From: Gracilaria domingensis
Taxonomy: Eukaryota; Rhodophyta; Florideophyceae; Gracilariales; Gracilariaceae
Assembly: GCA_022539475.1 (NCBI GenBank)
Contig: VCMS01000472.1
Coordinates: 16,103-58,843, forward strand
DNA length: 42,741 nucleotides
Reading direction: 5' to 3'
How positions within the stretch are numbered: the stretch's first letter is position 1; the number at the start of each line of letters is the position of its first letter. Positions 18,562 to 41,294 of the stretch are shown piece by piece. Both the position numbers and the translations under genes were made by a program. The notes under the pieces are model-generated. The model searched no databases. It worked only from the letters and a program-made list of their open reading frames with translations, and was not told where the DNA came from.

Positions 18562-18571
18562 AGTCAGTGAC

Positions 18572-18581
18572 AGAGGGGGGG
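18572..18581 (+). promoter_or_regulatory. Polypurine tract, unit B1
   Basis: AGAGGGGGGG directly before LTR2, a classic plus-strand primer site. It is non-coding, starting 11 bases after the gag-pol stop. The same tract occurs at 24649-24658. Confidence 0.9.
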
Positions 18582-19367
18582 TGTTGGATGTTGACCCTGT
18601 GCTGTCACTGAAAACCAAAAGTGCTGGGGAGCATGGGCTGTTTTGGAGGGTGCCGTTGGAAAAGCGCATATGCGCCTCTGCGCAAACTCAACGTGAAACG
18701 GGCTTCTGATTGGCTACTGCAAATGGTCATATGCATTGTGGTTCGTACAAGTGTTGTGGCGCTAATGGGTTGTTTCCGGGGTACACGTGTGTAGCTAGTA
18801 CACTGGGCATACTGTACATGATGCACAGGGTACACACGTATGTACGTGGACATGTAGGACAGCTTCATGTGACTTTGGCACTATGGTGAAGAGTAGATGC
18901 GCTGTCAAGAGGTTTACACTGTGGTATTGTTGGTGACGTAGGACTTGGAGTGAGTTTGTGGTGACGTGTTAGTTGGTGAGCTTGTACGTAACTGTTATGG
19001 TGGCGTGTACGGATTACAGTGTGTTGGCACTATGTGAATCTGTGCATGGTCATGGTTATGTGTAGGCACGTAACTTGATGTGCACGGTTGTGCACTGTTG
19101 TGCGTTGTTGTGCTTTGTTGTTGTAAGCTGTCATGATAGTGTGGCAGTGTTACCATGTTATGTTAGAAGATGATTGGTAGTATTGAGTGTCTCTAGCTAG
19201 TGGTTTAGGTATTGCTTGGAGTTGGAGTTGTGCGATGGTTGCGCAAAGTAGTTCTATATAAGCGGTGACTCGAGCACCTCCAAGTAAATTCCGAGCCAGA
19301 GCTGGCGAACTTCCCTTCATTCCCCTATCCTTTCTTCAACCTTCCCTTTCAGCTTCAACCTCTATCA
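18582..19367 (+). repeat. Family B array, LTR2, shared by units B1 and B2 (786 bp)
   Basis: It is preceded by a polypurine tract (3' LTR role for B1) and followed by a primer-binding site (5' LTR role for B2), so one LTR serves two internal regions. TATATAAG lies at 19255-19262, the GCGCATATGCGC palindrome at 18664-18675, the ATTGGCT box near 18708. It is nearly identical to LTR3; I see one substitution (19275 region, cacc versus cgcc). Confidence 0.95.
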
Positions 19368-19381
19368 GGTTATGGGCCCAG
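19368..19381 (+). promoter_or_regulatory. Primer-binding site, unit B2
   Basis: GGTTATGGGCCCAG directly after LTR2, same half-tRNA initiator-Met type. Confidence 0.9.
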
Positions 19382-20607: not shown

Positions 20608-23600
20608 ATGGACTCGTTTAGTGGGCTCAAGATCGAGAAGTTGGGTGAGGATAACTTCCATACTTGGAAGCAGAAGATTCAGTATGTACTTGCACTGAAA
20701 GACCTCAAGAACCATCTCACCACTTCTGCACCCACGGATGAAGAGGAACTGGTAAAGTGGCAAATCCGCGACGAAAGGGCTAGAGCTATCATTGGACTCA
20801 CGCTTGCCGACGAGCACTTGGATCACATTCGAGACATCGAGACTGCTGCTGACGCATGGAAGGCCATTTGCAATGTGTTTCAACGTAAGACTCTTCTTAA
20901 CCGAATCAACGCCAGACGTGCTTTCTACTCTGTCAAAATGCGCGAGGACGAGAAGATGTTGCAATTCATCAATCGTGTTCGGCACTTGGCCTCCGACCTC
21001 AAGAGTATGGACGTCAACGTTGAAGAAGAGGACATTGCTATGGCTGCTCTATGTGGACTTCCGGATCGTTTTGAGCACCTCATTGTTGCAATTGACACCA
21101 CGATCGGAGATCGCCAACTCACCATGGAGTTTGTGAAGAGCCGTCTATTGCAAGAAGAGCAACGTATGAGTGATCGTGCCAAGGAGGAGTCCGGTGTTGA
21201 TGCTGCACTCTTGGGACGCCAGTTTCGTAGGAAGTCATTGAAGTCGGTTGTGTGTTACTATTGTGGCATAAAGGGTCATATCCAGAAGAACTGTTTCAAA
21301 AAGCAACGTGATGGGGCTAACAAGGATCAGATCGATGCTGCTCACCCAAGTGTACATACCGCGCTCAACGATGAGCAAGGTACGGGCGGCAGCGATTCTG
21401 ACTTTGTATGCCTCATTGCGAATGGTGCCGACAAGGCCACTAACAGTGACTGGATTGTTGACTCTGGAGCTACTGCGCACATGACTTATGATGACTCAAT
21501 GTTCCAAACGTACGAGACAAAGGTGTCGTCGGGTGTGAGTATCGGCAATGATTCCAAGTTGCAGTCTGTTGGTCACGGAAGTGTGGAGCTCGATCTGACA
21601 GTTGAAGGGTCCAAGCGTAAGTGCAAGCTAAAGCAGGTGGTACACGTGCCCAACTTACGGTACCATTTGTTGTCTGTGTCACAGATTTGTGATCTGGGCT
21701 GCACGGTAGTGTTTGACAAAGAAAAGGTATGTGTGTACAAGGGGTCAAAAGTGGTTGCCGTTGGGCGCCGCGTCAAAGACCTGTACTACCTTTGCACTGC
21801 TGCAGATCAGTTCACGGACACGGACAGTGCGCTTGTGTCAGACTTGTCTCTTTGGCATGCTCGAATGGCTCATGTGAATGTGGAAGGCATCAAGCAGATG
21901 GCTCGAAACGGTGTTGTGTCAGGTCTGAATGTGGATGTGGCTCAGAAGCTGGATGTGTGTGGCTCTTGTGTAGTGGGCAAAGCAACCCGTGCTCCGACTC
22001 CCAAGCAAGGGGGGAACGAGCTGAACACGTACTGGACCTGGTACACTCTGATATATCGGGTCCAGTGAACGTGAAGTCCTTGGGAGGCTCGCACTACTTT
22101 GTCACATTCATCGATGACCACAGCCGCTACTGCTTCTTGTACATGCTCAAGACGAAGGATGAGGTGTTCCGGATGTTCATCAAGTGGCTCAGGTTTGTGG
22201 AGAACCAGATGGGCAGGAAAGTGTTAACCATCACCGCTCGCAAGAGTGTGTTGCGTGCATTACGCACTGACAATGGTGGTGAGTACTTGTCCAATCGGTT
22301 CTCCGAAAAGCTTGAGCAGTACGGTATTGAGCATCAGCGAACTGTGCCTTATAATCCACAGCAGAACGGGCTTGCCGAGAGGTTCAACCGCACACTCATG
22401 GACTTGGTCAGGTCAATATTGCATCACAAGAATGTGCCAAAAAGCTTTTGGGCTGAGGCTCTGAATGTTTCTGTGTATGTGCGCAACAGAGTGACCTGCA
22501 AAGCGCTTCCGAGTGACGTGACGCCGTTTGAGCTGTGGCATGGACAGAAGCCTGATCTGAGCAATCTGCGTGTGTTTGGTAGCCGTTGCTGGTACAAGGT
22601 GGTTGATCACAAGTTGAAGAAGCTGGAAGAGCGTGCAGTGGAGGCCATCTTCATTGGGTACACTTCAGGCTCCCACGGGTACAAGTTGTGGGACAGCCAG
22701 AAGAAGAAGGTGATTGTGTCACGAGATGTGAGGTTTGACGAGTGCTCTGCAACTGAAAGTGACGAGCACTCTGAAGACGAGGACTATGCGGATATCGACT
22801 TGGTCGACAAGTCGGTATCTGCTGAAGCCCCAACCTCCGACACATCCGCCGATCATTCTGAAGATGATCCTTCTGCACCAGCTTCTCATGAGAGTACCAC
22901 GAATGCCAGTACGGATGAAACACCACACCAGTTCCACAAGATGAGCCGGAAGTGACAGAGACGCAGCCCCTTCGTAGATCCACACGTCAGAGAAAGACGC
23001 CATCCTCGTGGTGGCGTGGTGCCAGTGCTTTCCTTACAGCCAGTGATGATACTCCTTCGTCGTACGGTGACGCAGTGTCACGTCCTGATTCCGAAGCTTG
23101 GAAGAAGGCGATGAAGAGTGAGTACGAGTCATTGATGGAGCATGACACATGGGATCTAGTGCCAAGGCCAGCAGACAGCAACGTGATTTCGTCCAAGTGG
23201 GTGTATGTACAGAAGTATGAGGCTTCGTCATCTGGTGAACCGACAGTGCGTTACAAGGCTCGTGTGGTTGCAAGAGGCTTCCTGCAGATCGAGGGTGTGG
23301 ACTTCTCAGAGACATATGCACCTGTGGTGAAGTTCACATCCATCAGAATGATCCTGTCAGTGACTGCCGTACGAGACTTCCACTTGCACCAGATGGATGT
23401 GAAGACTGCCTTTCTGAACGGTGACCTTGACGAGACAGTGTACATGGAGCAGCCAATGGGATTCACACAGCAGGGAAAGGAGGACTTGGTGTGCCGACTG
23501 AAGAAAGCGATCTATGGGCTTAGACAAGCACCAAGACAGTGGCACGCCAAGATATACGCCTTCCTTGTTGGTGAAATGCACCTCAAGCCGAATGACGCAG

Positions 23601-24630
23601 ACGAGTGTGTCTACACCGGGATCATACTGGGTTTCTTGGTTATCATTGCTCTGTATGTTGACGACTTGCTGATTGCGAGTCCGAGCATGAAAACCGTGGA
23701 ACGTGTGAAGGCAGAGCTGTCAAGTCGTTTCCGCATGAAGGACCTCAAAGAAGCTCGCATGGTTCTTGGATTTGAAATCCATCGAGACAGAACCAAGCGA
23801 GAGCTGTACTTGACTCAGTCAGCGTACACGAACAAGGTCCTGGAGCGATTTGGCATGCAGCTGTCGAAACCCGTTGACACTCCTATGGAGTGCGGTGTGG
23901 ACTTGTCTGTTGAGGAGGAAGTGCTCACGCATGTACCGTATCGTCAGGCGATTGGCTGCCTCATGTATCTGTCTGTGGGAACTCGTCCAGACATCTCATA
24001 TGCTGTGGCTAAGCTGGCCAAGTATGTTGAGAAGCCGGGAAACACTCACTGGAAGGCGGTCAAGCGTGTTCTTCGCTACCTCAATGGCACTACCACGTTC
24101 GGGTTGACGTATGGCTCCAGCACCGATTTGCAACTGCACGGCTATGTGGACTCTGACTGGGCTGGCGATGTTGCCAACCGCAAGTCCACTAGTGGATACT
24201 TGTTCATGATGTGCGGTGGTGCTGTGTCGTGGTCGTCTCGTCAACAGGAGGTAGTTGCTCTGTCGAGTGCAGAGGCTGAGTACGTGAGCTTGTGCTCTGG
24301 CACCAAGGAGGCGATCTGGCTTAGGCGACTTTGGAACGGCATTGGCAGTGTGATTGGCATGGAAGCAGACGGGTCTGTAAGCTGCTGGTTGAACCAACTC
24401 CCATGTATGTTGACAACCAGGGCAGCATTGACCTTGCTCGAAATGGAGTGGTGAACAGGCGAACCAAGCATATTGAAATTCGGTTCCACTTCACTCGAGA
24501 AGCTCTGCAGGCCAAGTCGATTGTGCTGTTCTACTGCCCGACGGATTCCATGGTTGCCGACATGCTGAATAAGCCGCTTGCGCGAGTGAAGCACGAGAGG
24601 TTCCGCGAAGCCGGTGGTGTGATCACATAG
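20608..24630 (+). pseudogene. gag-pol: Family B gag-pol polyprotein, unit B2, four small frame-breaking losses
   Basis: ATG at 20608 (MDSFSGLK). The first frame is open to the integrase: Gag, zinc knuckle CYYCGIKGHIQKNC at residues 216-229, protease DSGATAHM with Asp near 285, integrase His near 417 (LWHARMAHV) and CGSCVVGK. One G is missing from a G run at 22009-22014 (seven G in B1 and B3), shifting the frame. The second frame carries the integrase core (HSDISGP, TDNGGEY, NGLAERFNR) to about 22918, where another base is lost. The third frame carries the linker, RT with YVDD and most of RNase H. One A is lost near 24379 and one C near 24625, so the C-terminus ends early at 24630. All lesions are single-base losses, mostly in runs. 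Confidence 0.94.
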
Positions 24631-24648
24631 AAGTTTGAAGTCAGTGAC

Positions 24649-24658
24649 AGAGGGGGGG
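24649..24658 (+). promoter_or_regulatory. Polypurine tract, unit B2
   Basis: AGAGGGGGGG immediately before LTR3. Confidence 0.9.
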
Positions 24659-25444
24659 TGTTGGATGTTGACCCTGTGCTGTCACTGAAAACCAAAAGTG
24701 CTGGGGAGCATGGGCTGTTTTGGAGGGTGCCGTTGGAAAAGCGCATATGCGCCTCTGCGCAAACTCAACGTGAAACGGGCTTCTGATTGGCTACTGCAAA
24801 TGGTCATATGCATTGTGGTTCGTACAAGTGTTGTGGCGCTAATGGGTTGTTTCCGGGGTACACGTGTGTAGCTAGTACACTGGGCATACTGTACATGATG
24901 CACAGGGTACACACGTATGTACGTGGACATGTAGGACAGCTTCATGTGACTTTGGCACTATGGTGAAGAGTAGATGCGCTGTCAAGAGGTTTACACTGTG
25001 GTATTGTTGGTGACGTAGGACTTGGAGTGAGTTTGTGGTGACGTGTTAGTTGGTGAGCTTGTACGTAACTGTTATGGTGGCGTGTACGGATTACAGTGTG
25101 TTGGCACTATGTGAATCTGTGCATGGTCATGGTTATGTGTAGGCACGTAACTTGATGTGCACGGTTGTGCACTGTTGTGCGTTGTTGTGCTTTGTTGTTG
25201 TAAGCTGTCATGATAGTGTGGCAGTGTTACCATGTTATGTTAGAAGATGATTGGTAGTATTGAGTGTCTCTAGCTAGTGGTTTAGGTATTGCTTGGAGTT
25301 GGAGTTGTGCGATGGTTGCGCAAAGTAGTTCTATATAAGCGGTGACTCGAGCGCCTCCAAGTAAATTCCGAGCCAGAGCTGGCGAACTTCCCTTCATTCC
25401 CCTATCCTTTCTTCAACCTTCCCTTTCAGCTTCAACCTCTATCA
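24659..25444 (+). repeat. Family B array, LTR3, shared by units B2 and B3 (786 bp)
   Basis: Same termini and elements as LTR2, with TATATAAG at 25332-25339. Again one LTR lies between a polypurine tract and a primer-binding site, making the array head to tail. Confidence 0.95.
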
Positions 25445-25458
25445 GGTTATGGGCCCAG
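25445..25458 (+). promoter_or_regulatory. Primer-binding site, unit B3
   Basis: GGTTATGGGCCCAG directly after LTR3. Confidence 0.9.
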
Positions 25459-26686
25459 CCCCGCTGACCTCTGCCGTTATCGTTCCCTCTCGCCGCTGAT
25501 TCTCGCCGCTCTCCCTCACCGCCGTTCATCCGCTTCGCTGTTTTCCCTTTCGTTCCCTTCTCCGTTGCGTCGGGTGTGTTGACCGTATCGTTGGTCGGTG
25601 TTGACTTTCTTCTTTCGGTCGTTCGTTCCTCCCTGAGGGCGTTTTGTTGGTGGTGGTTCGACGTTGACTTTCTATCGTGATTGTGTTTGGGCGCTCGTTG
25701 TTGCCCGTGTTGTCGATCGCTATCCGCTTCGTTTGGTCTCCCTCTGTTATTATTGTTGGGATCCCCACGTCGTCTTTGTGGGTTCTGATCCGAGAGTTGA
25801 GGACCTTGTGTTGTTGAAGTCTGTGCACTTGTGTGTTGTGCTCAGCATTCGTTTCTGTTGAAGTCCGTGCACTGCGTGTGTGCTCGGCAGGTGTGGTGAT
25901 CACTTGAGTTTCGGTGCGACGAGCGGTTGATCCGAGCAATCGGGGACGTTAGTCTGGCGGCTTGAACCAAAGCATTTGTTCCGTCTTGCGAGTTTCCCAC
26001 CGGTCCTTAGGGGCAGATAACGGTGTCGGTCGAAAGACCTGGTATTCTTCGCGGGGGCATTTGTGGACGGGGTGCCGTGACGTACTGCACTGGACAGGAG
26101 GTGGTCCACCTTTATTGTTGCTGACCTGACTTTGTGTTGGGTTCTTGATCTGTGGCGAAGGCAAACTGAAACGAGCTTTTGATCCGTACTGCTTCGGTGG
26201 TGCGGGGAGGCGACGTGTCGTAGGCTGACCTCCTTTTTAGGATCAGGCCGCTTGTGAACTTCATTGTTTGCTTGCTAGAAGCGTACCTCGGTTTGTCATA
26301 GTACCTGCAGTTTCAGGGTCGCGCAAGTTCTTGCAAGAGACCAGAGAGGGTTTTACTTGGTGAAGGCATATCTTCGGTCATTAACCATCCTCTGGAAGTC
26401 TCGTAGAGAGCGACGCACCTTCTCCTAGAACGCAGGAGGAGGTAGACTGCAGAAGTCGTTTCTTACCCGGAGAGTCTCCGGGGGTCAGGGGTCCGACTCC
26501 CTAGGGTACCAGGAATCTTAGTTCCTTTTGCACCCGACTATTCATCTTTATTGTTGTTGTTGTTTGTTGTTATTGTTGTTTGTTGTTGTTTGTTGTTGTT
26601 TGCTGTTGTTGTTTACCGCTGTCGTTTGCTATTGCCGCCTGTCTGCCACCGCATTATCTGGTTCGCTGCAGTTCCTCTCTTACATC
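25459..26686 (+). other. Unit B3 untranslated leader
   Basis: Nearly identical to the B2 leader, with the same hairpins and a (TTG)n tract of intermediate length. One base is missing near 25796. No supported gene. Confidence 0.8.
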
Positions 26687-29600
26687 ATGGACTCGTTTAG
26701 TGGGCTCAAGATCGAGAAGTTGGGTGAGGATAACTTCCATACTTGGAAGCAGAAGATTCAGTATGTACTTGCACTGAAAGACCTCAAGAACCATCTCACC
26801 ACTTCTGCACCCACGGATGAAGAGGAACTGGTAAAGTGGCAAATCCGCGACGAAAGGGCTAGAGCTATCATTGGACTCACGCTTGCCGACGAGCACTTGG
26901 ATCACATTCGAGACATCGAGACTGCTGCTGACGCATGGAAGGCCATTTGCAATGTGTTTCAACGTAAGACTCTTCTTAACCGAATCAACGCCAGACGTGC
27001 TTCTACTCTGTCAAAATGCGCGAGGACGAGAAGATGTTGCAATTCATCAATCGTGTTCGGCACTTGGCCTCCGACCTCAAGAGTATGGACGTCAACGTTG
27101 AAGAAGAGGACATTGCTATGGCTGCTCTATGTGGACTTCCGGATCGTTTTGAGCACCTCATTGTTGCAATTGACACCACGATCGGAGATCGCCAACTCAC
27201 TATGGAGTTTGTGAAGAGCCGTCTATTGCAAGAAGAGCAACGTATGAGTGATCGTGCCAAGGAGGAGTCCGGTGTTGATGCTGCACTCTTGGGACGCCAG
27301 TTTCGTAGGAAGTCATTGAAGTCGGTTGTGTGTTACTATTGTGGCATAAAGGGTCATATCCAGAAGAACTGTTTCAAAAAGCAACGTGATGGGGCTAACA
27401 AGGATCAGATCGATGCTGCTCACCCAAGTGTACATACCGCGCTCAACGATGAGCAAGGTACGGGCGGCAGCGATTCTGACTTTGTATGCCTCATTGCGAA
27501 TGGTGCCGACAAGGCCACTAACAGTGACTGGATTGTTGACTCTGGAGCTACTGCGCACATGACTTATGATGACTCAATGTTCCAAACGTACGAGACAAAG
27601 GTGTCGTCGGGTGTGAGTATCGGCAATGATTCCAAGTTGCAGTCTGTTGGTCACGGAAGTGTGGAGCTCGATCTGACAGTTGAAGGGTCCAAGCGTAAGT
27701 GCAAGCTAAAGCAGGTGGTACACGTGCCCAACTTACGGTACCACTTGTTGTCTGTGTCACAGATTTGTGATCTGGGCTGCACGGTAGTGTTTGACAAAGA
27801 AAAGGTATGTGTGTACAAGGGGTCAAAAGTGGTTGCCGTTGGGCGCCGCGTCAAAGACCTGTACTACCTTTGCACTGCTGCAGATCAGTTCACGGACACG
27901 GACAGTGCGCTTGTGTCAGACTTGTCTCTTGGCATGCTCGAATGGCTCATGTGAATGTGGAAGGCATCAAGCAGATGGCTCGAAACGGTGTTGTGTCAGG
28001 TCTGGATGTGGATGTGGCTCAGAAGCTGGATGTGTGTGGCTCTTGTGTAGTGGGCAAAGCAACCCGTGCTCCGACTCCCAAGCAAGGGGGGGAACGAGCT
28101 GAACACGTACTGGACCTGGTACACTCTGATATATCGGGTCCAGTGAACGTGAAGTCCTTGGGAGGCTCGCACTACTTTGTCACATTCATCGATGACCACA
28201 GCCGCTACTGCTTCTTGTACATGCTCAAGACGAAGGATGAGGTGTTCCGGATGTTCATCAAGTGGCTCAGGTTTGTGGAGAACCAGATGGGCAGGAAAGT
28301 GTTAACCATCACCGCTCCAAGAGTGTGTTGCGTGCATTACGCACTGACAATGGTGGTGAGTACTTGTCCAATCGGTTCTCCGAAAAGCTTGAGCAGTACG
28401 GTATTGAGAATCAGCGAACTGTGCCTTACATCCACAGCAGAACGGGCTTGCCGAGAGGTTCAACCGCACACTCATGGACTTGGTCAGGTCAATATTGCAT
28501 CACAAGAATGTGCCAAAAAGCTTTTGGTCTGAGGCTCTGAATGTTTCTGTGTATGTGCGCAACAGAGTGACCTGCAAAGCGCTTCCGAGTGACGTGACTC
28601 CGTTTGAGCTGTGGCATGGACAGAAGCCTGATCTGAGCAATCTGCGTGTGTTTGGTAGCCGTTGCTGGTACAAGGTGGTTGATCACAAGTTGAAGAAGCT
28701 GGAAGAGCGTGCAGTGGAAGCCATCTTCATTCGGTACACTTCAGGCTCCCACGGATACAAGTTGTGGGACAGCCAGAAGAAGAAGGTGATTGTGTCACGA
28801 GATGTGAGGTTTGACGAGTGCTCTGGAACTGAAAGTGACGAGCACTTTGAACACCAGGACTACGCGGATATCGACTTGGTCGACAAGTCGGGAGCTGCTG
28901 AAGCCTCAACCTCCGACACATCCGCCGATCATTCTGAAGATGACCCTTCTGCACCAGCTTCTCATGAGAGTACCACGAATGCCAGTACGGATGAGAACAC
29001 CACACCAGACGAACATGATGAGCCGGGAGTGACAGAGACGCAGCCCCTTCGTAGATCCACACGTCAGAGAAAGACGACATCCTCGTGGTGGCGTGGTGCC
29101 AGTGCTTTCCTTACAGCCAGTGATGATACTCCTTCGTCGTACGGTGTCGCAGTGTCACGTCTTGATTCCGAAGCTTGGAAGAAGGCGATGAAGAGTGAGT
29201 ATCAATCGTTGATGGAGCACGACACGTGGGATCTAGTGCCAAGGCCAGCAGACAGCAACGTGATTTCGTCCAAGTGGGTGTATGTACAGAAGTATGAGGC
29301 TTCGTCATCTGGTGAACCGACAGTGCGTTACAAGGCTCGTGTGGTTGCAAGAGGCTTCCTGCAGATCGAGGGTGTGGACTTCTCAGAGACTTATGCACCT
29401 GTGGTGAAGTTCACATCCATCAGAATGATCTTGTCTGTGACTGCCGTACGAGACTTTCACTTGCACCAGATGGACGTGAAGACTGCGTTTCTGAACGGTG
29501 ACCTTGACGAGACAGTGTACATGGAGCAGCCAATGGGGTTCACACAGCAAGAAAGGGGGACTTGGTGTGCCGACTGAAGAAAGCAATCTATGGGCTTAGA

Positions 29601-29887
29601 CGAGCACCAAGACAGTGGCACGCCAAGATATACGCCTTCCTTGTTCGTGAAAAGCACCTCAAGCCGAATGACGCAGACGAGTGTGTCTACACCGGGATCA
29701 TACTGGGTTTCTTGGTTATCATTGCTCTGTGTGTTGACGACTTGCTGATTGCGAGTCCGAGCATGAAAACCGTGGAACGTGTGAAGGCAGAGCTGTAAAG
29801 TCGTTTCCGCATGAAGGACCTCAAAGAAGCTCGCATGGTTCTTGGATTTGAAATCCATCGGGACAGAACCAAGCGAGAGCTGCACTT
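26687..29887 (+). pseudogene. gag-pol: Family B gag-pol polyprotein, unit B3, part left of C2
   Basis: ATG at 26687 with the family B Gag start. Frame breaks lie near 27001, 27929, 28316, 28427 and 29550, and TAA at 29796-29798 replaces a Ser codon. All domains up to the middle of the RT are recognisable: zinc knuckle, DSG protease, HHCC integrase, DDE core. The RT active site reads CVDD instead of YVDD (Cys codon 29729-29731), so this copy would be inactive even without the shifts. Up to about 28500 it is almost identical to B2; from about 28597 it follows the B0-type subfamily. C2 interrupts it at 29887 and the gene resumes at 40816. Confidence 0.92.
29883..29887. repeat. Target-site duplication of C2 (left), cactt
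   Basis: The right copy at 40816-40820 is tactt, and the uninterrupted B pol site reads tactt, so the left copy has one substitution. Confidence 0.85.
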
Positions 29888-30830
29888 TGTTAGAGGTTAT
29901 AGCTGGAAAGGGAAGGTTGAAAGAAAGTTTGGGGGAATGAAAGGAAGTTCGCCAGCTCTGGCTCGGAATTTAATTGGAGGTGCTCGAGTCACCGCCTATA
30001 TAGAACTACTTTGCGCAACCATCGCAAACCTCCAACTCCAAGCAATACCTAAACCACTAGCTAGAGACACTCAATACTACCAATCATCTTCTAACATGAC
30101 ATGGTAACACTCCCACACTATCATGGCAGCTTACAACAACAAAGCACAACAGTGCACAACAGTGCACAACAACTTACGTGCCTACACATAACCATGACCA
30201 TGCACAGATTCACATAGTGCCAACACACTGTAATCCCTACACCACACCATAACAGTTACGTACAGGCTCACCAACAACAACTCACCACAAACTCACTTCA
30301 AGTCCTACGTCACTAACAACACCACACTGTAATCCTCTTGACACCGCATCAACTCTTCACTATAGTGCCCAAGTTACACCAAGCTGTCCTACATGTCCAC
30401 GTACATACGTGTGTACTCTGTGCATCATGTACAGTATGCCCAGTGTACTAGCTACACACGTGTACCCCGGACACAACCCATTAGCGCCACAACACTTGTA
30501 CGAACCACAATGCATATGACCATTTGCACTAGCCAATCAGAAGCCCGTTTCACGTTCAATTTGCGCAGACGCGCATATGCGCTTTTCCAACGGCACCCTC
30601 CAAAACAGCCCATGCTCCCCAGCACTTTTGGTTTTCAGTGACAGCACAGGGTCAACATTCAACACAGCATTCCAATGTAGCCGTAAACGTTCAACCCATA
30701 CTGAGTATACCACACAGCAACATAGTATACCAAACAGAACAACATCAATCTCGGTTTCACATACCAAGGTACCATTCTAGACTCCACACATCTCAGCTGC
30801 TTGATGTCAGTGACAGCATGACTTCCAACA
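29888..30830 (-). repeat. C2 3' LTR (943 bp)
   Basis: TG...CA in element sense (plus strand TGTTAGAGG...TTCCAACA). Positions 29888-30664 resemble an entire family B LTR, including CTATATAG (TATA box, minus strand) near 29996-30003 and the 12-bp palindrome region near 30570. Positions 30665-30830 are a 166-bp segment found only in family C. Confidence 0.9.
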
Positions 30831-30843
30831 CCCTCCCTCTGTT
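30831..30843 (-). promoter_or_regulatory. C2 polypurine tract
   Basis: In element sense AACAGAGGGAGGG immediately before the 3' LTR; same place and type as in C1 and similar to the B tract. Confidence 0.82.
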
Positions 30844-31261
30844 ACTGACTTCAAGCAACCAGCGCTCCTGGCCAAGTACATGCTAAATAACAAGTCGGGC
30901 AGTCAGGAAACCAGCGTCACTGCACTTAAACCTTACGATGGCCAACGGTGACAACCAAACATCAAGTGCAGTTATTGTGTGACCAAGTCCACGGGTGTAC
31001 CGTTCTACCAGTATACCAAGATCATAGTTCTGTTCTATACGATTCGGATGTTCTGGGAGCACCCTCCTTTTGTCACATGCTCTGAACTTCTTACTCATCC
31101 TTCGTATGGCAACGAAGGCAACAGCTTCCGGTTCAAACAGATATCAACAACAGACAGTGAGAGCCTAAGTCTGAGGATGTTACTCTGACACCCTCCCTCT
31201 CTTACTGGCTTTGAACTTCTCTCAGAAACAAAATGCCCCTCAGAGTCCTTCACGAAAGGGA
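30844..31261 (-). other. C2 internal 3' region, no gene, with a second polypurine-tract-like copy
   Basis: Matches C1 12220-12498 for its first part (to about 31125). A 26-bp stretch at 31191-31216 repeats the polypurine tract and its upstream flank (30831-30856), about 21 of 26 identical. A CCTTCG/CGAAGG hairpin lies near 31098-31118. No coding frame is supported. Confidence 0.65.
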
Positions 31262-31309
31262 TCTAGACGTCCACAAGTTACCACATTCTAGACACCGAAG
31301 ACAAATGTT

Positions 31310-32225
31310 GCTCCGAGCATGTAACACATAACAACCTCTCGGAGCACCATTAATCACAGTACTTCAACCAGACATGCAAACACACGCAACCTTCTGGTTC
31401 AAGACCGATTTTCTGAACACCGGACATGCAACAAGTAGCAACCTTCCGGTTCAATATCACTTTCTTAACAGCTGGACATGCAAAACAGAGCAACCTTCCA
31501 GCTCAACAAATCTCTTCAAACAGCGGACATGCAAAATCACAGCAACCTTCCGCGAATAACACATAAGAGAATTGCGACACAAGCAACCTGGACATGGAAA
31601 ATGACAACCTTCCAGGCCCCGTCCATACAAAATGATGTCCTACACACTCAGGCATGAAACACTCAACCTCCTGAGTCAATTAGCTCTTTCATTCACACCG
31701 GAAATGCAAACACATAGCAAACTTCCAGTGACAACAAACTGAAACAAAGAGCGAAACAAACGTCACAAGTAATGAAACAAACACTCAGGCATGAAACACT
31801 CAACCTCCTGAATCGAACAGCTCTTCCATAACCCAGACATGCATACATGTAACAACCTTCTGGTAACATGAGAACAACATGGAGAGCAAAACACACATCA
31901 CAAGTCATCAATAATACACTCAGGCATGAAACACTCAACCTCCTGAGTCAAACAGCTCTTCCATACACACCGGACATGCAAACAAATAGCAACCTTCCGG
32001 TACAACATAATTGAAGCGAAGAGCACAGCACACATCCCGGGCATACATAACGACAACCTTCTGAGCCTGCGTAAGGAAGTCACGATAACAACGGACAAGT
32101 AACATCGCAACTTTCCAGAGTTGATACAAAGAAGAGCTCAGACATGTTCAACAACAAACACCCAGGAAGTGTCATAAACGAATCTCACACACATAGGCTC
32201 AGGCAGGAAACACTCCACCTCCTGA
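31310..32225 (-). ncRNA. Array of at least 13 covarying RNA hairpins in C2
   Basis: Each unit has an outer stem of 5-8 bp whose sequence differs from unit to unit, enclosing a loop of 17-21 nt. Read on the plus strand the loop begins CATG and ends CAACCT in most units; in element sense it begins AGGTTG and ends CATG. Outer stems (plus coordinates): 31310-31317/31338-31345, 31366-31372/31393-31399, 31419-31424/31445-31450, 31470-31476/31497-31503, 31523-31527/31549-31553, 31587-31592/31611-31616, 31646-31652/31670-31676, 31696-31702/31724-31730, 31783-31789/31807-31813, 31833-31837/31859-31863, 31918-31924/31942-31948, 31969-31974/31996-32001, 32199-32203/32221-32225. Inside, a 3-bp stem also covaries (TGC/GCA, TGA/TCA, TGT/ACA, GGA/TCC), leaving an AGGT/TG internal loop. 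Degenerate units lie near 32036, 32090 and 32135. The role is unknown; the pattern is that of a structured RNA, not of a gene. Confidence 0.8.
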
Positions 32226-33084
32226 ACTGTAGCGAGAATAACAACAACAAACTGCAAGCGATTGGGTGCATAAGGAACTAAGATTCCTGGTACCCTAGGG
32301 AGTCGGACCCCTGACCCCCGGAGACCCTCCGGGTAGGAAACGACTTTCTTCTGTCTACCTCCTCCTGCGTTCCAGGAGAAGGCGCGTCGCTCTCTACGAG
32401 ACGTCCAGAGGATGGTTAGTGACCAAAGATATGCCTTCACCAAGTTAAACCCTCTCTGGTCTCTTGCAAGAACTTGCGCGACCCTGATACTGCAGGTACT
32501 ATGACAAACCGAGGTACGCTTCCAGCAAGCAAACAATCAAGTTCACAAGCGGCCTGATCCTGAAAAGGAGGTCAGCCTACGACACGTCGCCTCCCCGCAC
32601 CACCGCAGCAGTACGGATCAAGAGCTCGTTTCAGTTTGTCTTCCCAACAGATCAAGAACCCAACACACAGTCAGGTCACACACAACAAAGGTGAACCACC
32701 CCTGTTAGATGCAGTACGTCACGGCACCCCGTCAACTTCAGCACTCGCGGTACTACCAGGTCTTCCGACCGACACCGTTATCTGCCCCGAAGGACCGGCG
32801 GGAGCCCGCTCGACAGCGCTTCCGAATTGGTTCAAGCCGCCAGACTAACGTCCCCGATTGCTCGGATCAACCGCTCGTCGCACCGAAACTCAAGTGATCA
32901 CCACAAATGTCGAGCACAAAGGCAGTGCCCGGACTTCAACGAAAAAACGAATGCTGAGCACAACACACAAGTGCACAGACTTCAACGACAACGGTACTCA
33001 ACCCCTCGGATCAGAACCCGCAAACACGACACGGGGATCCCAACAACGAAAACAGAGGCGAGAAACCAACAACAGCGGATAGCG
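32226..33084 (-). other. C2 leader, part downstream of A2 in element sense
   Basis: In minus orientation it follows the family B leader from the tagcg site at 33080-33084 down to about 32240, including the conserved segment with GGTGAAGGCATATCTT (reverse at about 32425-32447) and the CCGGAG-type hairpin near 32315-32335. Homology ends close to where gag would start in B; the hairpin array begins directly after. No gene is supported. Confidence 0.82.
33080..33084. repeat. Target-site duplication of A2 (left), tagcg
   Basis: Repeated at 39584-39588 after the 3' LTR. The family B leader carries the uninterrupted site on the opposite strand (cgatcgctatcc). Confidence 0.94.
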
Positions 33085-33812
33085 TGTTGATGTTTGGATG
33101 GTGTCGAGTGCCTGGCAGTCCTTGAATTTGTCTCCAAGTACCTGGAACACAAAGTTGCAGGGGAGCATGGGCACTTTTGGGCACCCTCGCGCGAAAAGCG
33201 CATATGCACCTCTCCGTAAACCCAACGTGATACTGCAATATGATTGGCTACTGCAAATGCGTATATGCAACGTAGTGTGGACAAGTGGACCTGGCTGTAT
33301 GGGGCAGGAGTGGCGGATGGCACAAGTGGTGCGCTGTGATTGGCTGAAGTGTGCTAGTGCTGGCCAGTTATGCAGTAGCTGAGAATGTGCGAATACAGGC
33401 TATACAGAGCGGTTTTTGCAATATGTGCGATTCTAGGCTAGTACGAAGGATTTTGGAGCGAATGTGCGATTCTGAGCTGCACGAGGGGGTTTGTTGCGCC
33501 AGATGGAAATTGTTGATTTTTTAGAGCGATTTTGGATCATGGAGTTGGCATTGGATTTGGCGCGGTTTGATTTAGTTGTTTTGAATTCGTATTGTGATTT
33601 GCGCGCGCTTTCGTTGTCAAGATGTACACTTTGACAGCGTGTGCTGTTATGTCTCATGCAGCGACGGCGGCAGTGCGCGGTTAGTACTAGTAGGTTGCGA
33701 TCGTCCCCGTTCACTAAACTCGGTCGAAGGTGGCCTACCCTCTTTATTTGTCTTACCTATCTTGTTCACATCTTTTTCCTTTCTACTTGTCTAACCTGCG
33801 TTCGTTAGTTTA
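33085..33812 (+). repeat. A2 5' LTR (728 bp)
   Basis: TGTTGATG...GTTAGTTTA. Contains the U3 block shared with families B and C, two ATTGGCT boxes, and GCGCATATGCAC, one base off the perfect palindrome present in its 3' LTR. Confidence 0.95.
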
Positions 33813-33826
33813 GGTTATGGGCCCAG
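33813..33826 (+). promoter_or_regulatory. A2 primer-binding site
   Basis: GGTTATGGGCCCAG directly after the LTR, half-tRNA initiator-Met type. Confidence 0.9.
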
Positions 33827-34525
33827 AGCGTCGACTCTTCGCAGACGTCACGCTCTTCTACTAATTTCTCGTTTGGATTCTACGAAGTTTTGTTTTCTTG
33901 CGACAGGTACGCGTTGCGAGCGAGCGAGCGAGCGAGCGAGCAGAAGGACCGCGCTGATTTCCCGCAAGCGACTAGCAGGGGCTAACTGGTGAACGCATAT
34001 CTTTGGCTACTAACCTCCCTGGGACGTCTCGTACGGATTGTAAAGCCCCTCGCTCTGAAGTACGCAGAGCAGGGTAGGTCAAGAAGAATTCGTGCCTCAC
34101 CTGGAGAGATTAACCAGGGACCAGAGGTTCGGACCTCTAGGGTAACCGGATATTAGATCCTGCCAGTGGACCCGCTGCTTCTTCTTCTTCTTCTTCTTGT
34201 TTCCGGGTTGAGTTCTGTCTCACCCGTGAGTATACTCCAGGCGTCGGGTACCCGAACTCCGCCTGTGATCGCGTACGGGACGCGTCCCGACGAGCGTTGT
34301 AGACCTGGTTACACGGTCTCCGCTGGCGCCCTCGCTGTTGAGTGTTGAGAATACTCCACTCCAGCCTTTACCCTCTTGTGTAACTGAAGCGTTGATTCCC
34401 TCTTTCCGCTTCTTTGTTTGTTTCTTTGAGCTTTGCTTTTCACTTCCGAGCTGGTTCTCTACTTTTCTTGGCTTGGTTACTACCTGGTTTGCCGATTCCG
34501 ACTGTGTTCCTCAGGCTCTTTTGTC
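33827..34525 (+). other. A2 untranslated leader
   Basis: Same layout as in A1: GCGA microsatellite (about 33916-33941), conserved hairpin segment (about 33985-34176), then a TTC tract two repeats longer than in A1 (about 34177-34199). No gene is supported. Confidence 0.78.
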
Positions 34526-37500
34526 ATGTCTGACTCCGAAAAGGAAACGGATACCAACTCTGGTGTGAAGATTCCTCGCTTCCATGGCAAGCGTGGTGAG
34601 GATGACGCACTCTGGAGGCATCGACTTCGTGCCGCCTGTCGCATCAAAGGTGTCTGGAATGTGGTTAACACAGATACTGAGCAGTCTATTTCAACTGAGA
34701 CGACCGCTACTGATGGTCAGGGATCCTCTGTTGATGCCATTCGCACGTTATCCAAACGCGAGAAGGCTTGCGGAATCATCATCTGTGCACTTGGTGATGC
34801 TCCTTTACGTGTGGTTATGGACGTGGATGACGATCCGGCAAAGATGATCAAGTTGCTGGATGCACGCTATGCTTCGAATCGCACGGTGTCTAGGATTGCT
34901 GTTCAGACCCAACTATTCCGTATGACATACAATGGGCAGAACATGTCCGAATACGTTGACCAATTCACGGCTCTGTTCTCGCAGTTGGATCGTATGGGCA
35001 AGGATGCTGCCATCCCCGAATCTCACAAAGCTCCAATGTTGTTGGCTTCTATTGATCCGCAGAGCTCACTGGAGTCCACGGCTGCAGCATTACGTACCAA
35101 GGAGATCTCTGAGTTAACGTGGGACTATGTTGCTACCACCCTCATTGATGAATACAATGCACGTCACATGACTACTGGTCGCAGTCGCAGCCGAAAGAAA
35201 GGAAAGGGAAGAGGTTCCAACAAGTCTCATGGTACCTCCTCTATCACACATCATCGAGATGGTAATGATTCGGATGATGTTTCTGGCACACATGCACTTG
35301 CAGCAGCCAGTGGCAGCGGGTATCACTGTGACTTTTGTGGTCGAGATGGACATACCAAAGATCGTTGCTTTGTAAACCCGGACAATCCTGACAACCATCT
35401 GCCTCAGAGCATACTCGACAAGTTGGCTTTGAAGGCGAAGGACAAGTCTGGAGGATCTAAAGCGTCAGCAAAGTCGTCTGGTAAGTCCTCCAAGATAGAG
35501 ATTGCAGGCATGTCATTTGAGAAAGCGACAGTCCTGCCACCTGCGCAACGAGAAATGGACACCTATGCAGACAGTGGAGCAACTTCTCATTACTTCCACT
35601 CTGCAGCTGCCTTCGTTCCAAGCTCATTGCACGATGTTGAGGAGCGACACATACGGTTGGCCGACAAGAGTACTGTGTCTGCGACGAAATGTGGAGATGT
35701 TATTCTGCCTTTTGACAATGTGAATCTAAGGTTGACTGATGCCCTACTCGTGCCTGACATGGAGTACAACCTAGTTTCTGTTGGGAGCCTTGCCGACAAG
35801 TCTATTGAGTCTCGGTTCCGTGCACGTGAAGTTCGCCTGATTCATGAAAATGGCTTGGTGGTCGGGTGCGGACAGCGCGATAAACGTTCTGGCCTGTATA
35901 CTTTGCCCGAACTGGTCATGCATTTCGGCGCGGAGCACGCATTACTCGCTGGTAAAGCCGATTTGCAGTGCATGTTGAAGGCATCATTATCGGAGTTGAC
36001 TCAACTATGGCACCGCCGACTGGCTCATATCAACCCGAGAGACCTTCAAATGGTGCACAAGCATGCCAGTGGTGTGCCACAGCTCACAGAAATGAGGGAG
36101 GTGTGTCACCCTTGTCGTCTTGGGAAAGCACACAAACTTCCATTTCCTGGAGTATTTACTCGTGAATCCGAGGTTGGTGACACTGTGCACTCCGACATAT
36201 TAGGTCCACTCACCCTGTCCTTCCCTGACCGATTCCAAGTATGCATCAGCATTTGTGGATGATCACTCGCGTTATGTGATCATAGGGTTCATGAAACACC
36301 GCAGTGAGATCAATGATGTGTATGACGGAGTGGCGCAGAAGCTCAAGCAGCTTGGAGGAGCTGTGGTGAAGAAGGTACACACTGACGATGCAAAGGAGTA
36401 CATCGCTCTGCAGGAGAATCCGGAGAATGCCTTCGACGATACATCGTTCTCTGCCCCATACACCCCGGAACATAACGCCATTGCCGAGCGCATCAACCGT
36501 ACCATGGAAGAAGCTGCTCGAGCTTTGCTCATTCAAGCAAATCTACCAGAGTGCTTGTGGCCTTTCGCACTCAAACATGTTCTATATGTGCGTAACCGTG
36601 TACCCCATTCCACTACTGGGAGTACGCCGTTCTTGTTATTGACTGGGAACAAACCAACGTTGAAGCACACTCGCGTGTTCGGTTGTTCTGCATTTGTGCT
36701 TAAGATGACTGGTGGAACCAAGTTCGAGTCTCGTGCACTTGAGGGGGTGTACTTGGAGACTCTTGAGCATGGTGTCTACGACATTCTTGTTGCTGGCGAT
36801 GATGGACTGCCGCGCATCATGCGTTCCCGTCATGTCACATTTGACGAAGATTCATTCCCCGGTGCAGAGTACTTGGAGGAGTACATGGAGGATGAAAGCG
36901 CATCTGATACCGACTTCACCGATTCAGAGTCTCACAGCACCGAGGATGTCTCCAGTACAGATCGGAATGTACTTGATGAGGTCTCTGTTGATGATATAAC
37001 TGATGCTGACGATCATTCTCCAGAAGAAAGTGCACCTGATGCAGAAGTCGTTGAAGCTGCACCAAGTGTCCAGTCAAATGATAGTGACTCTGGTGGTGAC
37101 GAGAGTGACGATGATGACTCCAGCGACTCAGATGTGGACGATGACACCGATCAGGTCCCTACTGTGCAGCAAGATGAGCCCGTACAGGAGGAGTCACGCT
37201 ACCCACAGCGCACTCGTCGTGCACCTCGCAGGTGGTTCATGGCTGGTTCCACAACCCCAGCTGGAGTCCAGGTCACCACGAGTGATGAACCAACACTCAA
37301 GGAAGCAATGTCCGCAACGCCTACGGAACAGAGCTTGTGGCGTGCTGCTATTGAGGAAGAGCTGGCATCTCTTGAGTCGAAGAAAACCTGAAAGGTTGAC
37401 CAGTCCCCAGCTCAGCAACCACTTCCCACACATATCATTCTCAAAGTTAAACGTAATGCGGATGGGTCTGTGGATCGCTTCAAGGCTCGAGTTGTCGCTG

Positions 37501-38861
37501 GTGGTAATCACCAAACCTTCGGGGAGAACTACATGGACACATATGCTCCAGTGGTTTCATTTAGTTTGGTGCGGTTCTTCCTCTACCTGACGCTGTGCTT
37601 GCAGATGTTTGTGGCACAAGTCGATGTGAAGACTGCCTTCCTCAATGGCGACCTCGAGGAGGATGTGTGGGTCATGTCACCGCGTGGTGTTCCTGGTCTT
37701 GGTTCACGGTGCTACAAGCTTCAGAAAGCCATGTATGGATTGAAGCAAGCCCATCTAGCATGGCATACCAAGTTCACACGTGATCTACACTCCATTGGTT
37801 TCCAAGAACTACCGAGTGCCCCATGCGTGTTTCGGAGGGCTAGCGAGCATAATGGATACTGCTATATCCTTGTGTACGTCGATGACTTGCTCATCTTCAC
37901 CCCCTCTGCCAAGGAACGATCTGGGATCTTGGAGGAGCTCAAGCGATTGTACGAGATTCGCGTTGAGAACAAAGTGACCCTCTACCTCGGTGTAGAGTTG
38001 ACATGGAGCATTAATGACGATGGTCGTGTCACTGGAGTGCACCTTGGTCAGACACTCTACATCGAAGGAATTCTGCGACGTTTCGGTCTGGACAACTCTA
38101 AGCCGGCTCGTAGTCCAATGGTGGAGTCATTCTTCTCGGGTCTCGTGGCCGAGGAAGACAAGTCACCCCGGGATGTGCAGCTGTACCAGCAGATGATCGG
38201 GTCTCTGCTGTACTTGGCACTGCGCACGCGCGTGGACATTCTGGCTCCGGTGCTCATCCTCGCTCGTTTCCAGAGCAACCCCACGGCATACTGTCACAGG
38301 GCCGCCAAACGAGTGTTGCGTTACCTGCAAGGAACTCGCAGACATGGCTTGAACTACAAGGCTGGATCCCTGGACATGCAAGCGTATGTGGACTCGGACT
38401 TCGCCGGTGACACCTGCGATCGCAAGTCCATGTCTGGTTACATGATCAAGTTCGGATCTGCGGTGGTGTTCTTCGGTGCCAAGAAGCATTCGTCTGTTGC
38501 TTTGTCTACTGCTGAGGCTGAGTACTACGCGTTAACCATGGCTGCTCAGGAGGTTGTGTGGATGAGGCGTGTACTCTCTGAGATTGGTCTGGATAGTTCC
38601 GGGGCTGTTCCTATGCACTCTGACAATCAGATTGCCATTGGCTGGAGTGCAGGTGAGCGGTGCCCATCTGGTCGTGCGAAGCATATTGATGTCAAGTTGC
38701 ACTTCATTAGGGAACTGGTAAAGGAGTCTGTCATTGTGGTGCTGTATGTCCCAAGTAAGTTGAATGACTCGGACATACTCACAAAGCCTCTAGGTCCTCT
38801 CGACGCCCAGGCCATTATGAAAAGGATTGGTCTTGGACAGGAACTCGAGGAGGAGTGTTGA
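34526..38861 (+). pseudogene. gag-pol: Family A gag-pol polyprotein, copy A2, one frameshift and one stop
   Basis: ATG at 34526 (MSDSEKETD). The first frame gives Gag, the zinc knuckle CDFCGRDGHTKDRC, protease DSGATSHYF, integrase LWHRRLAHI and HSDILGP. One extra C at 34234-relative position 36234-36237 (GATTCC versus GATTC in A1) shifts the frame inside the integrase core. The new frame continues with SDDAKEY-like and NAIAERINRT motifs, the acidic linker and the RT start. TGA at 37389-37391 (TGG in A1) stops it. The rest, 37392-38861, is open: RT with YVDDLLIF, RNase H with DSDFAGD, and the natural C-terminus EEEC, whose last codon and stop lie in the LTR. Where A1 has stops, A2 has sense codons and vice versa, so the lesions are private to each copy. 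Confidence 0.94.
38847..38855 (+). promoter_or_regulatory. A2 polypurine tract
   Basis: GAGGAGGAG directly before the 3' LTR, coding for the Glu run at the protein end, as in A1. Confidence 0.75.
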
Positions 38862-39583
38862 TGTTTGGATGGTGTCGAGTGCCTGGCAGTCCTTGAATTT
38901 GTCTCCAAGTACCTGGAACACAAAGTTGCAGGGAAGCATGGGCACTTTTGGGCACCCTCGCGCGAAAAGCGCATATGCGCCTCTCCGTAAACCCAACGTG
39001 ATACTGCAATATGATTGGCTACTGCAAATGCGTATATGCAACGTAGTGTGGACAAGTGGACCTGGCTGTATGGGGCAGGAGTGGCGGATGGCACAAGTGG
39101 TGCGCTGTGATTGGCTGAAGTGTGCTAGTGCTGGCCAGTTATGCAGTAGCTGAGAATGTGCGAATACAGGCTATACAGAGCGGTTTTTGCAACATGTGCG
39201 ATTCTAGGCTAGTACGAAGGATTTTGGAGCGAATGTGCGATTCTGAGCTGCGCGAGGGGGTTTGTTGCGCCAGATGGAAATTGTTGATTTTTTAGAGCGA
39301 TTTTGGATCATGGAGTTGGCATTGGATTTGGCGCGGTTTGATTTAGTTGTTTTGAATTCGTATTGTGATTTGCGCGCGCTTTCGTTGTCAAGGTGTACAC
39401 TTTGACAGCGTGTGCTGTTATGTCTCATGCAGCGACGGCGGCGGTGCGCGGTTAGTACTAGTAGGTTGCGATCGTCCCCGTTCACTAAACTCGGTCGAAG
39501 GTGGCCTACCCCCTTTATTTGTCTTACCTATCTTGTTCACATCTTTTTCCTTTCTACTTGTCTAACCTGCGTTCGTTACTTTA
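38856..39583 (+). repeat. A2 3' LTR (728 bp)
   Basis: TGTTGATG...GTTACTTTA, followed by the second tagcg copy at 39584-39588. It carries the perfect 12-bp palindrome GCGCATATGCGC near 38967. Confidence 0.95.
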
Positions 39584-39588
39584 TAGCG
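39584..39588. repeat. Target-site duplication of A2 (right), tagcg
   Basis: Second copy of the 5-bp duplication; the C2 leader continues after it. Confidence 0.94.
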
Positions 39589-39853
39589 ATCGACGAAAAC
39601 GAAAATGAACGAGAAGCCAAACAGAATCACGAAAGTAGAACAACGTCAAACCACTACCACCACAACGCCCTCAGGGAGGAACGCAAACCAAAAGGGAAAT
39701 ACAACACCACCAAACCAGTCAACGACAAGAAACACGACAGCTAACAACCATCGAAAACATCAACAACGGCGTTCAACAACACGGTCGGCGGTGAGGGAGA
39801 GCGGCGGAAAGGGAAACCTCAAGACGAACGACAAACGGCAGAGGTCAGCGGGG
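39589..39853 (-). other. C2 leader, part next to the primer site
   Basis: Minus-orientation counterpart of the first ~270 bp of the family B leader (compare 13299-13560), more diverged than the rest. A 86-codon frame on the plus strand is rich in Asn, Thr, Arg and Lys without a recognisable domain; I treat it as chance. Confidence 0.78.
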
Positions 39854-39867
39854 CTGGGCCCATAACC
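39854..39867 (-). promoter_or_regulatory. C2 primer-binding site
   Basis: In element sense GGTTATGGGCCCAG, perfect, directly after the 5' LTR. Identical to the sites of A and B. Confidence 0.9.
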
Positions 39868-40815
39868 TGTTAGAGGTTATAGCTGGAAAGGGAAGGTTGA
39901 GAGAAAGGATGGGGGGAATGAAAGGAAGTTCGCCAGCTCTGGCTCGGAATTTAATTGGAGGTGCTCGAGTCACAGCCTATATAGAACTACTTTGCGCAAC
40001 CATCGCAAACCTCCAACTCCAAGCAATACCTAAACCACTAGCTAGAGACACTCAATACTACCAATCATCTTCTAACATGACATGGTAACACTCCCACACT
40101 ATCATGGCAGCTTACAACAACAAAGCACAACAGTGCACAACAGTGCACAACAACTTACGTGCCTACACATAACCATGACCATGCACAGATTCACATAGTG
40201 CCAACACACTGTAATCCTTACACCACACCATAACAGTTACGTACAGGCTCACCAACAACAACTCACCACAAACTCACTTCAAGTCCTACGTCACTAACAA
40301 CACCACACTGTAATCCTCTTGACACCGCATCAACTCTTCACTATAGTGCCCAAGTTACACCAAGCTGTCCTACATGTCCACGTACATACGTGTGTACTCT
40401 GTGCATCATGTACAGTATGCCCAGTGTACTAGCTACACACGTGTACCCCGGACACAACCCATTAGCGCCACAACACTTGTACGAACCACAATGCATATGA
40501 CCATTTGCACTAGCCAATCAGAAGCCCGTTTCACGTTCACTTTGCGCAGACGCGCATATGCGCTTTTCCAACGGCACCCTCCAAAACAGCCCATGCTCCC
40601 CAGCACTTTTGGTTTTCAGTGACAGCACAGGCAGGGTCAACATTCAACACAGCATTCCAATGTAGCCGTAAACGTTCAACCCATACTGAGTATACCACAC
40701 AGCAACATAGTATACCAAACAGAACAAGATCAATCTCGGTTTCACATACCAAGGTACCATTCTAGACTCCACACATCTCAGCTGCTTGATGTCAGTGACA
40801 GCATGACTTCCAACA
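39868..40815 (-). repeat. C2 5' LTR (948 bp)
   Basis: Matches 29888-30830 apart from about ten small differences, including a 4-bp GGCA insertion near 40631. The family-C-specific 166-bp segment is 40650-40815. Right target copy tactt follows at 40816-40820. Confidence 0.9.
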
Positions 40816-41294
40816 TACTTGACTCAGTCAGCGTACACGAACAAGGTTTGGAACGATTTGGCATGCAGCTGTCGAAACCCGTTGACACTTCTATGGAGTA
40901 CGGTGTGGACTTGTCTGTTGACGAGGAAGTGCTCACGCATGTACCGTGTCGTCAGGCGATTGGCTGCCTCATGTATCTCTCTGTGGGAACTCGTCCAGAC
41001 ATCTCATATGCGGTGGCAAGCTGGCCAAGTATGTTGAGAAGCCGGGAAACACTCACTGGAAGGCGGTCAAGCGTGTTCTTCGCTACCTCAATGGCACTAC
41101 CACGTTCGGGTTGACGTATGGCTCCAGCACCGATTTGCAACTGCACGGCTATGTGGGCTCTGACTGGGCTGGCGATGTTGTCAACCGCAAGTCCACTAGT
41201 GGATACTTGTTTATGATGTGCGGTGGTGCTGTGTCGTGGTCATCTCGTCAACAGGAGGTAGTTGCTCTGTCGAGTGCAGAGGCTGAGTACGTGA
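40816..41294 (+). pseudogene. Family B pol, unit B3, part right of C2 (RT end and RNase H start)
   Basis: Resumes at YLTQSAYTNKV, the point interrupted at 29887, and runs through the RT connection into RNase H. One base is lost near 41016. The first RNase H catalytic Asp is replaced by Gly (YVGSDWAGD; Gly codon 41156-41158). At 41289-41294 the gene jumps into LTR sequence with six shared bases, ACGTGA. The RNase H C-terminus, polypurine tract and LTR start are deleted. Confidence 0.9.

Follow-up and report, generated by a model that had tools for sequence, protein, structure and literature searches.

Non-coding LTR retrotransposons of the LARD and TRIM kinds, among them Dasheng with RIRE-2 and the TRIMs of taeniids, carry LTRs, a primer site and a polypurine tract, contain no genes, and have an apparent helper with a similar LTR and leader. 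Their non-coding part is presumed to hold a packaging structure, and in the mobilisation of such elements a packaging element conserved only in secondary structure is considered difficult to identify (excerpt of PMC4558846). The element analysed here, termed C, resembles LARDs and TRIMs in all of these features; unlike them, it repeats a single covarying hairpin about 13 times in a row. In Ty1 the sequences for packaging are located close to the 5' end, and Ty3 packaging depends critically on the zinc-finger motif (excerpt of PMC4974528), and a looped-purine site is bound by the Gag of MMTV (excerpt of PMC8096270). The array is like retroviral and Ty packaging signals in being structured, in exposing purines and in lying towards the 5' terminus of the genomic RNA (excerpts of PMC8096270 and PMC4974528). 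Those signals, however, occupy few sites in an autonomous genome, whereas C has many copies of its motif and none was found in its likely helper.

The bacterial regulatory RNAs CsrB and RsmZ have many hairpins with a short purine motif in their terminal loops, and CsrB-type RNAs titrate CsrA. The array shares with them the many hairpins and the short purine motif, but in C the motif is a 4x2 internal loop within a mobile element. The constitutive transport element of MPMV (likened by its description) and the ENE of Copia93 are, like the array, cis-acting RNA structures of retroelements. An ENE requires a U-rich internal loop, which the array units lack, as their loop strands are AGGU and UG. 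Elements of this class are expected to contain a packaging structure (excerpt of PMC4558846), but no comparable hairpin array was among the matches listed in the open-licence PMC literature; within the literature and Rfam searched, an array of this kind is new.

The window, that is, the whole stretch of DNA analysed, covers 42.7 kb of the 77.9-Mb assembly searched. The host is probably a red alga, judged by one gene: for a plastid-type PGK of this assembly, the red alga Agarophyton chilense gave the highest identity of any named match among the 120 listed (84% over 82%). The LTRs and leader of C match those of a gag-pol-bearing Copia element, B, in reverse, so the sense strand of C is the minus strand. 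The features of C, in element order, and one feature of B are as follows.

40816-40820, no strand: target duplication at the 5' LTR, AAGTA in element sense (AAGTG on the other side, one mismatch)
39868-40815, minus: 5' LTR of C, 948 nt, starting TGTTGGAAGTC and ending CTCTAACA; 98.7% identical to the 3' LTR; bounds agree with the unnested copy L113
39853-39867, minus: putative primer-binding site GGTTATGGGCCCAGC, immediately inside the 5' LTR, with the same sequence in element B
39583-39867, minus: first part of the leader common to B (sequence match to B)
33084-39583, plus: Copia element A, nested in the C leader and foreign to C; LTRs at 33084-33812 and 38855-39583, gag domain
32264-33084, minus: second part of the leader common to B (sequence match to B)
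31310-32228, minus: hairpin array (descriptor, pairing statistics, covariance model)
30831-31309, minus: 3' region of C with polypurine-like blocks (by eye, sequence reading)
30831-30840, minus: polypurine tract abutting the 3' LTR, AGAGGGAGGG (sequence reading)
29888-30830, minus: 3' LTR of C, 943 nt (LTR comparison)
29883-29887, no strand: target duplication at the 3' LTR, AAGTG in element sense (sequence reading)
21250-21297, plus: CCHC zinc knuckle of Gag in a B copy (Pfam PF00098, residues 226-241 of window:20575-22068)

The LTRs of C end in TG..CA and are flanked by a 5-bp target duplication. We take GGTTATGGGCCCAGC for the complement of the initiator tRNA-Met anticodon arm; a half-tRNA primer from this tRNA is used by Drosophila copia. 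With no nested insertion, copy L113 measures 4519 bp (LTR 993, internal region 2533, LTR 993), with LTRs 99.9% identical to each other and a perfect target duplication, TGAAC, so that LTR lengths range over 0.94-0.99 kb across the window and L113; its internal region consists of the leader, the array and then about 480 nt with polypurine-like blocks. Given the LTR identity in both copies, and another array that is 99.8% identical to that of the window, C has been mobile recently. The first 1101 internal nucleotides of L113 are 84% identical to the leader of B (B 13285-14375), and the B-like part of the LTR in the window copy is 91-93% identical to B, which encodes Retrotran_gag_2, Pol_BBD and RVT_2 domains (Pfam); C is in this respect derived from Copia. 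The longest ORF overlapping 30700-32300 has 132 aa, and none of the six ORFs tested gave a Pfam match above the cut-off. L113 has no internal ORF over 177 aa, the 177-aa ORF being antisense and outside the Pfam scan. The 132-aa sense ORF, which has a TTG start, spans the leader and the start of the array (L113 2654-3052; window 32138-32536), and its window version has no Pfam match. The initial annotation had called the element a gene-less retrotransposon, and its LTRs, target duplication, primer-site-like and polypurine tracts and the six ORFs without a Pfam match agree with this. As in LARDs, there are paired LTRs with a target duplication, no coding capacity and a total length (in L113) over 4 kb, the size limit of that class (excerpt of PMC4558846). 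Judged by its sequence, C is a non-coding, LARD-like Copia derivative.

Several details of LTR structure were noted alongside. The window LTR at 29888-30830 is a hybrid of 165 C-specific nucleotides followed by about 780 nt of B-like sequence; the L113 LTR (835-1827) is C-type throughout. Each polypurine-like block in 30831-31309 has TG directly after it. Two stretches of about 1.3 kb (L114 5998-7317 and L118 5925-7225) start at an upstream polypurine block and run through the C 3' region and the start of the C LTR into a B-like LTR, thus resembling solo LTRs of a longer form; the one in L114 has a short overlap of B gag-pol at its flanks, and the right flank of that in L118 differs. The B elements of the window form a tandem at 12499-29887 (LTR-internal-LTR-internal-LTR-internal, with common LTRs of about 787 nt), of which recombination or assembly could be the cause. 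At 10427-12206 a C-type LTR has a B-type LTR (10979-11764) inside it, and a run of 296 N lies at 16731-17026.

The array occupies the position where B continues to gag-pol; in B about 150 nt rich in TTG separate the common leader from gag. It consists of 13 hairpins on the sense strand, although the hairpin form is readable on both strands of 31310-32228. In sense order, each unit comprises an outer stem of 5-9 bp, AGGU, an inner stem of 3 bp, a loop of 5-9 nt, UG and the closing arm, so that the unpaired bases described earlier on the plus strand as CA and ACCT are UG and AGGU on the minus strand. AGGU was found in 12 of the 13 window units as the 5' side of the internal loop, and UG likewise in 12 of 13 as the 3' side. 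The coordinates and letters given previously (31310-32225) proved right, the first unit lying at 31310-31345 and the last at 32196-32228, and the claim of 13 or more hairpins with this loop holds as 13 aligned units and one decayed unit. These units, with their covariance model scores, and the predicted closing stems are listed below in sense order.

32196-32228, minus: unit, inner stem GGA/TCC, 5-nt loop, 35.3 bits
32034-32067, minus: decayed unit, left out of the model, 9.7 bits
32018-32024, minus: closing stem of unit 31967-32003, 5' arm GCTCTTC (consensus fold)
31967-32003, minus: unit, ACCGGA stem, 9-nt loop, 52.8 bits
31955-31961, minus: closing stem of unit 31967-32003, 3' arm GAAGAGC (consensus fold)
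31917-31949, minus: unit, ACTCAGG stem, 5-nt loop, 42.0 bits
31879-31887, minus: closing stem of unit 31830-31866, 5' arm GCTCTCCAT (consensus fold)
31830-31866, minus: unit, CCAGA stem, 9-nt loop, 40.3 bits
31820-31829, minus: closing stem of unit 31830-31866, 3' arm ATGGAAGAGC, one bulged A (consensus fold)
31782-31814, minus: unit, ATTCAGG stem, 41.2 bits
31746-31752, minus: closing stem of unit 31695-31731, 5' arm GCTCTTT (consensus fold)
31695-31731, minus: unit, CACTGGA stem, loop AGTT/TT, 43.6 bits
31683-31689, minus: closing stem of unit 31695-31731, 3' arm AAAGAGC (consensus fold)
31645-31677, minus: unit, ACTCAGG stem, 42.0 bits
31585-31618, minus: unit, CCTGGA stem, 40.1 bits
31520-31556, minus: unit, GCGGA stem, 42.7 bits
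31469-31504, minus: unit, AGCTGGA stem, 45.3 bits
31417-31452, minus: unit, ACCGGA stem, 45.8 bits
31365-31400, minus: unit, AACCAGA stem, 47.6 bits
31310-31345, minus: unit, GCTCCGAG stem, 45.0 bits

The closing stem GCTCTTY/RAAGAGC, predicted by the consensus fold around three long-loop hairpins (in one case in a bulged form), is nearly invariant among copies and therefore offers no covariation support. Units are spaced at about 52 nt or at 135, 137 and 272 nt, and modules of 52 and 135 nt have evidently been duplicated. A coding repeat was rejected as an explanation, since the spacings keep no single frame and the six ORFs are without a Pfam match. In a diverged copy, L031, two further segments (1327-1360 and 1382-1415) score as units that are weak or absent in the window; the ancestral array may thus have had about 15 units.

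A strict descriptor of the hairpin found 11 units on the minus strand of 31280-32260, whereas 1000 dinucleotide shuffles of this region gave a mean of 0.024 and a maximum of 2. Elsewhere in the window it matched six further places, which represent two repeated sequences (38327/5650, and the four B-type LTRs at 11140, 13124, 19207 and 25284); all six are absent from the window matches of the covariance model. A looser descriptor was too permissive and was set aside (12 observed; mean 3.35 and maximum 9 in 200 shuffles). The covariance model was built from the 13 aligned units and recovers them by construction, at 35-53 bits; apart from these and the decayed unit it finds nothing in the window up to E = 5. 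The initial annotation knew of no named RNA motif of this form, and Rfam likewise gave no match at the gathering score for the window and none at E <= 1 for 30830-32300, which led us to reject a known RNA family or ribozyme. When seven minus-strand units were folded in isolation, six took the expected stems, one of them with an extra pair, and unit 32196-32228 preferred a different inner pairing. The consensus fold of 13 whole arrays predicted 278 pairs, two with a change on both sides; by hand count, this fold has both stems in nine of the 13 units, the outer stem only in one and neither in three, two of these three being lost because ACTCAGG-type units are able to pair mutually.

The pairing evidence comes from comparison of the units with one another. 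In the 12 distinct window units 95.8% of the cells are paired, with 32 double-change cells, and nine of the ten pairs are changed on both sides. Simple shuffles reached these statistics in 0 of 500 trials, and sliding the structure along the units gave at most 47.5% paired cells. Two kinds of tree-aware null, with tree and number of changes held constant, were run for 2000 trials each on 52 units from four copies (44 distinct); neither ever reached the paired fraction of 0.958 or the 32 double changes of the window units, and the same result (0/2000) was obtained for the units of L031, those of L030 and the four copies pooled. The internal loop changes less than the stems, with two changes in six loop columns against 42 in 20 stem columns in the window (p = 0.001), 4 against 40 in L050 (p = 0.015) and 7 against 57 in L031 (p = 0.011), in units that were chosen by loop and pairing, a choice that favours loop conservation. 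Covarying stems around a fixed internal loop, as originally described, are thus borne out among units. An R-scape-like test of single pairs agreed in part: the top three pairs of the window set and the top six of a larger set (95 units from eight copies, 70 distinct; model matches with E above 0.01 left out) are structural, but only one of 378 column pairs was significant in the window (6-32, E = 0.028; threshold E < 0.05) and none among the 70 units. The covariation is one between the units of the array.

Arrays in other copies of the family had been named as support, and they occur at no fewer than 51 places in the genome, a few of which may be pieces of one copy. The array query gave at least 44 rows at 40 places (best 40 of 61 candidates scored), with row L001, the window itself, dropped. 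A pattern search of the assembly gave 219 matches, compared with three for the reversed control, and the 100 listed add eight places; C125:33878 and C161:144676 were counted as arrays from several pattern matches each. Matches to the 3' region of C (best 40 of 79 candidates scored) add three more. Of these 40 matches 38 adjoin an array (32 at array-query places, three at pattern places and three read directly); the remaining two begin within the region, have no array and resemble solo LTRs of the longer form. Twelve copies searched with the model have 6-14 units each at E <= 0.01, some of these copies being cut. Four copies have in common an extra module of about 135 nt, and arrays gain and lose whole modules. 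The only match standing alone among the 100 listed of the 219, C221:26922, was not found by the model. Genome copies are mostly 90-100% identical, and a query with the diverged L031 gave 44 rows, none below 84% identity (best 40 of 61 candidates). Outside element C, the pattern search gave 32 single matches in prokaryote genomes (about 37 expected by a hand estimate of chance) and one and three single matches in viral contigs, all of which look like chance; phage records had no match to the motif.

Comparison of the genome copies, proposed as a deciding test, decided little: stems vary about as much as linkers. Across 40 sequences variation was 2.3% in the outer and in the inner stem, 1.6% in the internal loop, 2.5% in the hairpin loop and 2.6% in the linker, and only the two doubly changed pairs of the consensus fold were seen. 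Frequent variants alone gave no sign of constraint (p = 0.50), nor did the tree (39 rows with over 700 nt), either for core against linker (p = 0.11) or for whole hairpin against linker (p = 0.49), and pairing-keeping changes were not significantly more common on internal branches (19/40) than on terminal ones (22/62, p = 0.30). Among 46 rows, frequent minor states kept pairing more often than singletons (7/11 versus 22/70, p = 0.049), seven of those 11 lying in one unit; in unit 31830-31866 one pair shows A-U, G-U and G-C states across copies. Among genome copies, which are young and for the most part presumably dead, no clear excess of constraint on stems over linkers is seen.

The least probable account of the array is that the antisense strand is selected, with an antisense transcript or single-stranded minus cDNA folding into the hairpins. 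Whole-array folding does give a stronger z on the plus strand (-7.9, against -3.4 for sense, 20 shuffles each), and the minor states among genome copies have no strand bias (G-U 29, A-C 23). The plus-strand value counts against a sense-strand fold, though it may stem from the A/C-rich, poorly pairing linkers of the antisense strand. In the units of all four copies counted sense G-U cells exceed A-C cells (4:0 in the window, 7:0 in L030, 10:0 in L050, 9:4 in L031), in copies that are relatives of one another and in units whose selection itself favours G-U. The G-U excess in units points to the sense RNA as the folded molecule. It also speaks against the array being an old palindrome without function, spread by tandem duplication and with its arms restored by template switching (quasi-palindrome correction) during reverse transcription. 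Such an origin would fit the small constraint among copies and the evident module duplication, but template switching should erase the AGGU/UG mismatch, each side of which is kept in nearly every window unit, and we consider this origin improbable.

The computed properties of the array (the hairpins, the covariation and loop conservation among units, the position and the copy number) include a fixed internal loop on changing stems, which looks like a protein-binding surface. We tentatively propose, at rather less than even odds, that the array is a selected RNA structure in the sense RNA of C that serves as a multivalent platform on which Gag from B docks. In lineages that transposed, selection would have maintained the array, acting in a sense-strand transcript of C. 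On varied stems, each hairpin would offer the same asymmetric loop, in which AGGU faces UG and Gs are perhaps exposed, and 6-14 copies of one binding surface (13 in the window) could provide avidity. The Gag of B, which has one CCHC knuckle, may dock on the array and so raise the share of C RNA in particles beyond the effect of the common leader. It is the most economical candidate ligand, as C must borrow everything. Against this proposal, C already has the leader of B, and the motif, which a Gag-binding packaging signal would be expected to have in the helper genome as well, was not found there: with filters off, the model gave nothing above 6.0 bits in B (window 12400-18700), and no unit in those portions of L114 and L118 that belong to B. 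Packaging of B by its own Gag should hence be possible without the motif, and the array does not resemble a signal by which B itself is packaged. Inheritance of the motif from B was rejected on the same result, the strict-descriptor matches in the B-type LTRs being mostly G-U paired. The absence from B would also fit a need peculiar to non-coding RNA, and the main rival, somewhat unlikely in itself and nearly as good as Gag docking, is a selected structure whose partner is a host factor for nuclear export, stability or translational exclusion of the non-coding transcript. A gene-less unspliced RNA must exit the nucleus and survive; export of unspliced MPMV RNA needs a cis element (excerpt of PMC3856414), and an ENE protects Arabidopsis Copia93 RNA (excerpt of PMC12501189). 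Such a host factor is a candidate partner only, the loop, not being U-rich, is not that of an ENE, and no isolated unit was confirmed among the listed pattern matches. About 13 similar hairpins with the same AGG-type unpaired bases, in arrays that gain and lose whole modules, might instead act as a sponge, with the transcript of C titrating in trans either Gag or another RNA-binding protein that serves silencing or decay. This we regard as a slim prospect, because a trans effect is hard for selection on an element to keep and the likeness to CsrB is limited to architecture.

Extending the Gag-docking proposal to gene-less retrotransposons at large, such elements might evolve an amplified array of recognition hairpins that is absent in the helper and win the helper's Gag by avidity, a generalisation that we put forward as doubtful. 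If true, C would parasitise a parasite by means of a packaging or recruitment code that is multivalent and its own invention. The array is one structure repeated about 13 times within one element and carries its own covariation record; it supplies a defined 37-nt motif for a ligand search and bears on how non-coding retrotransposons are mobilised.
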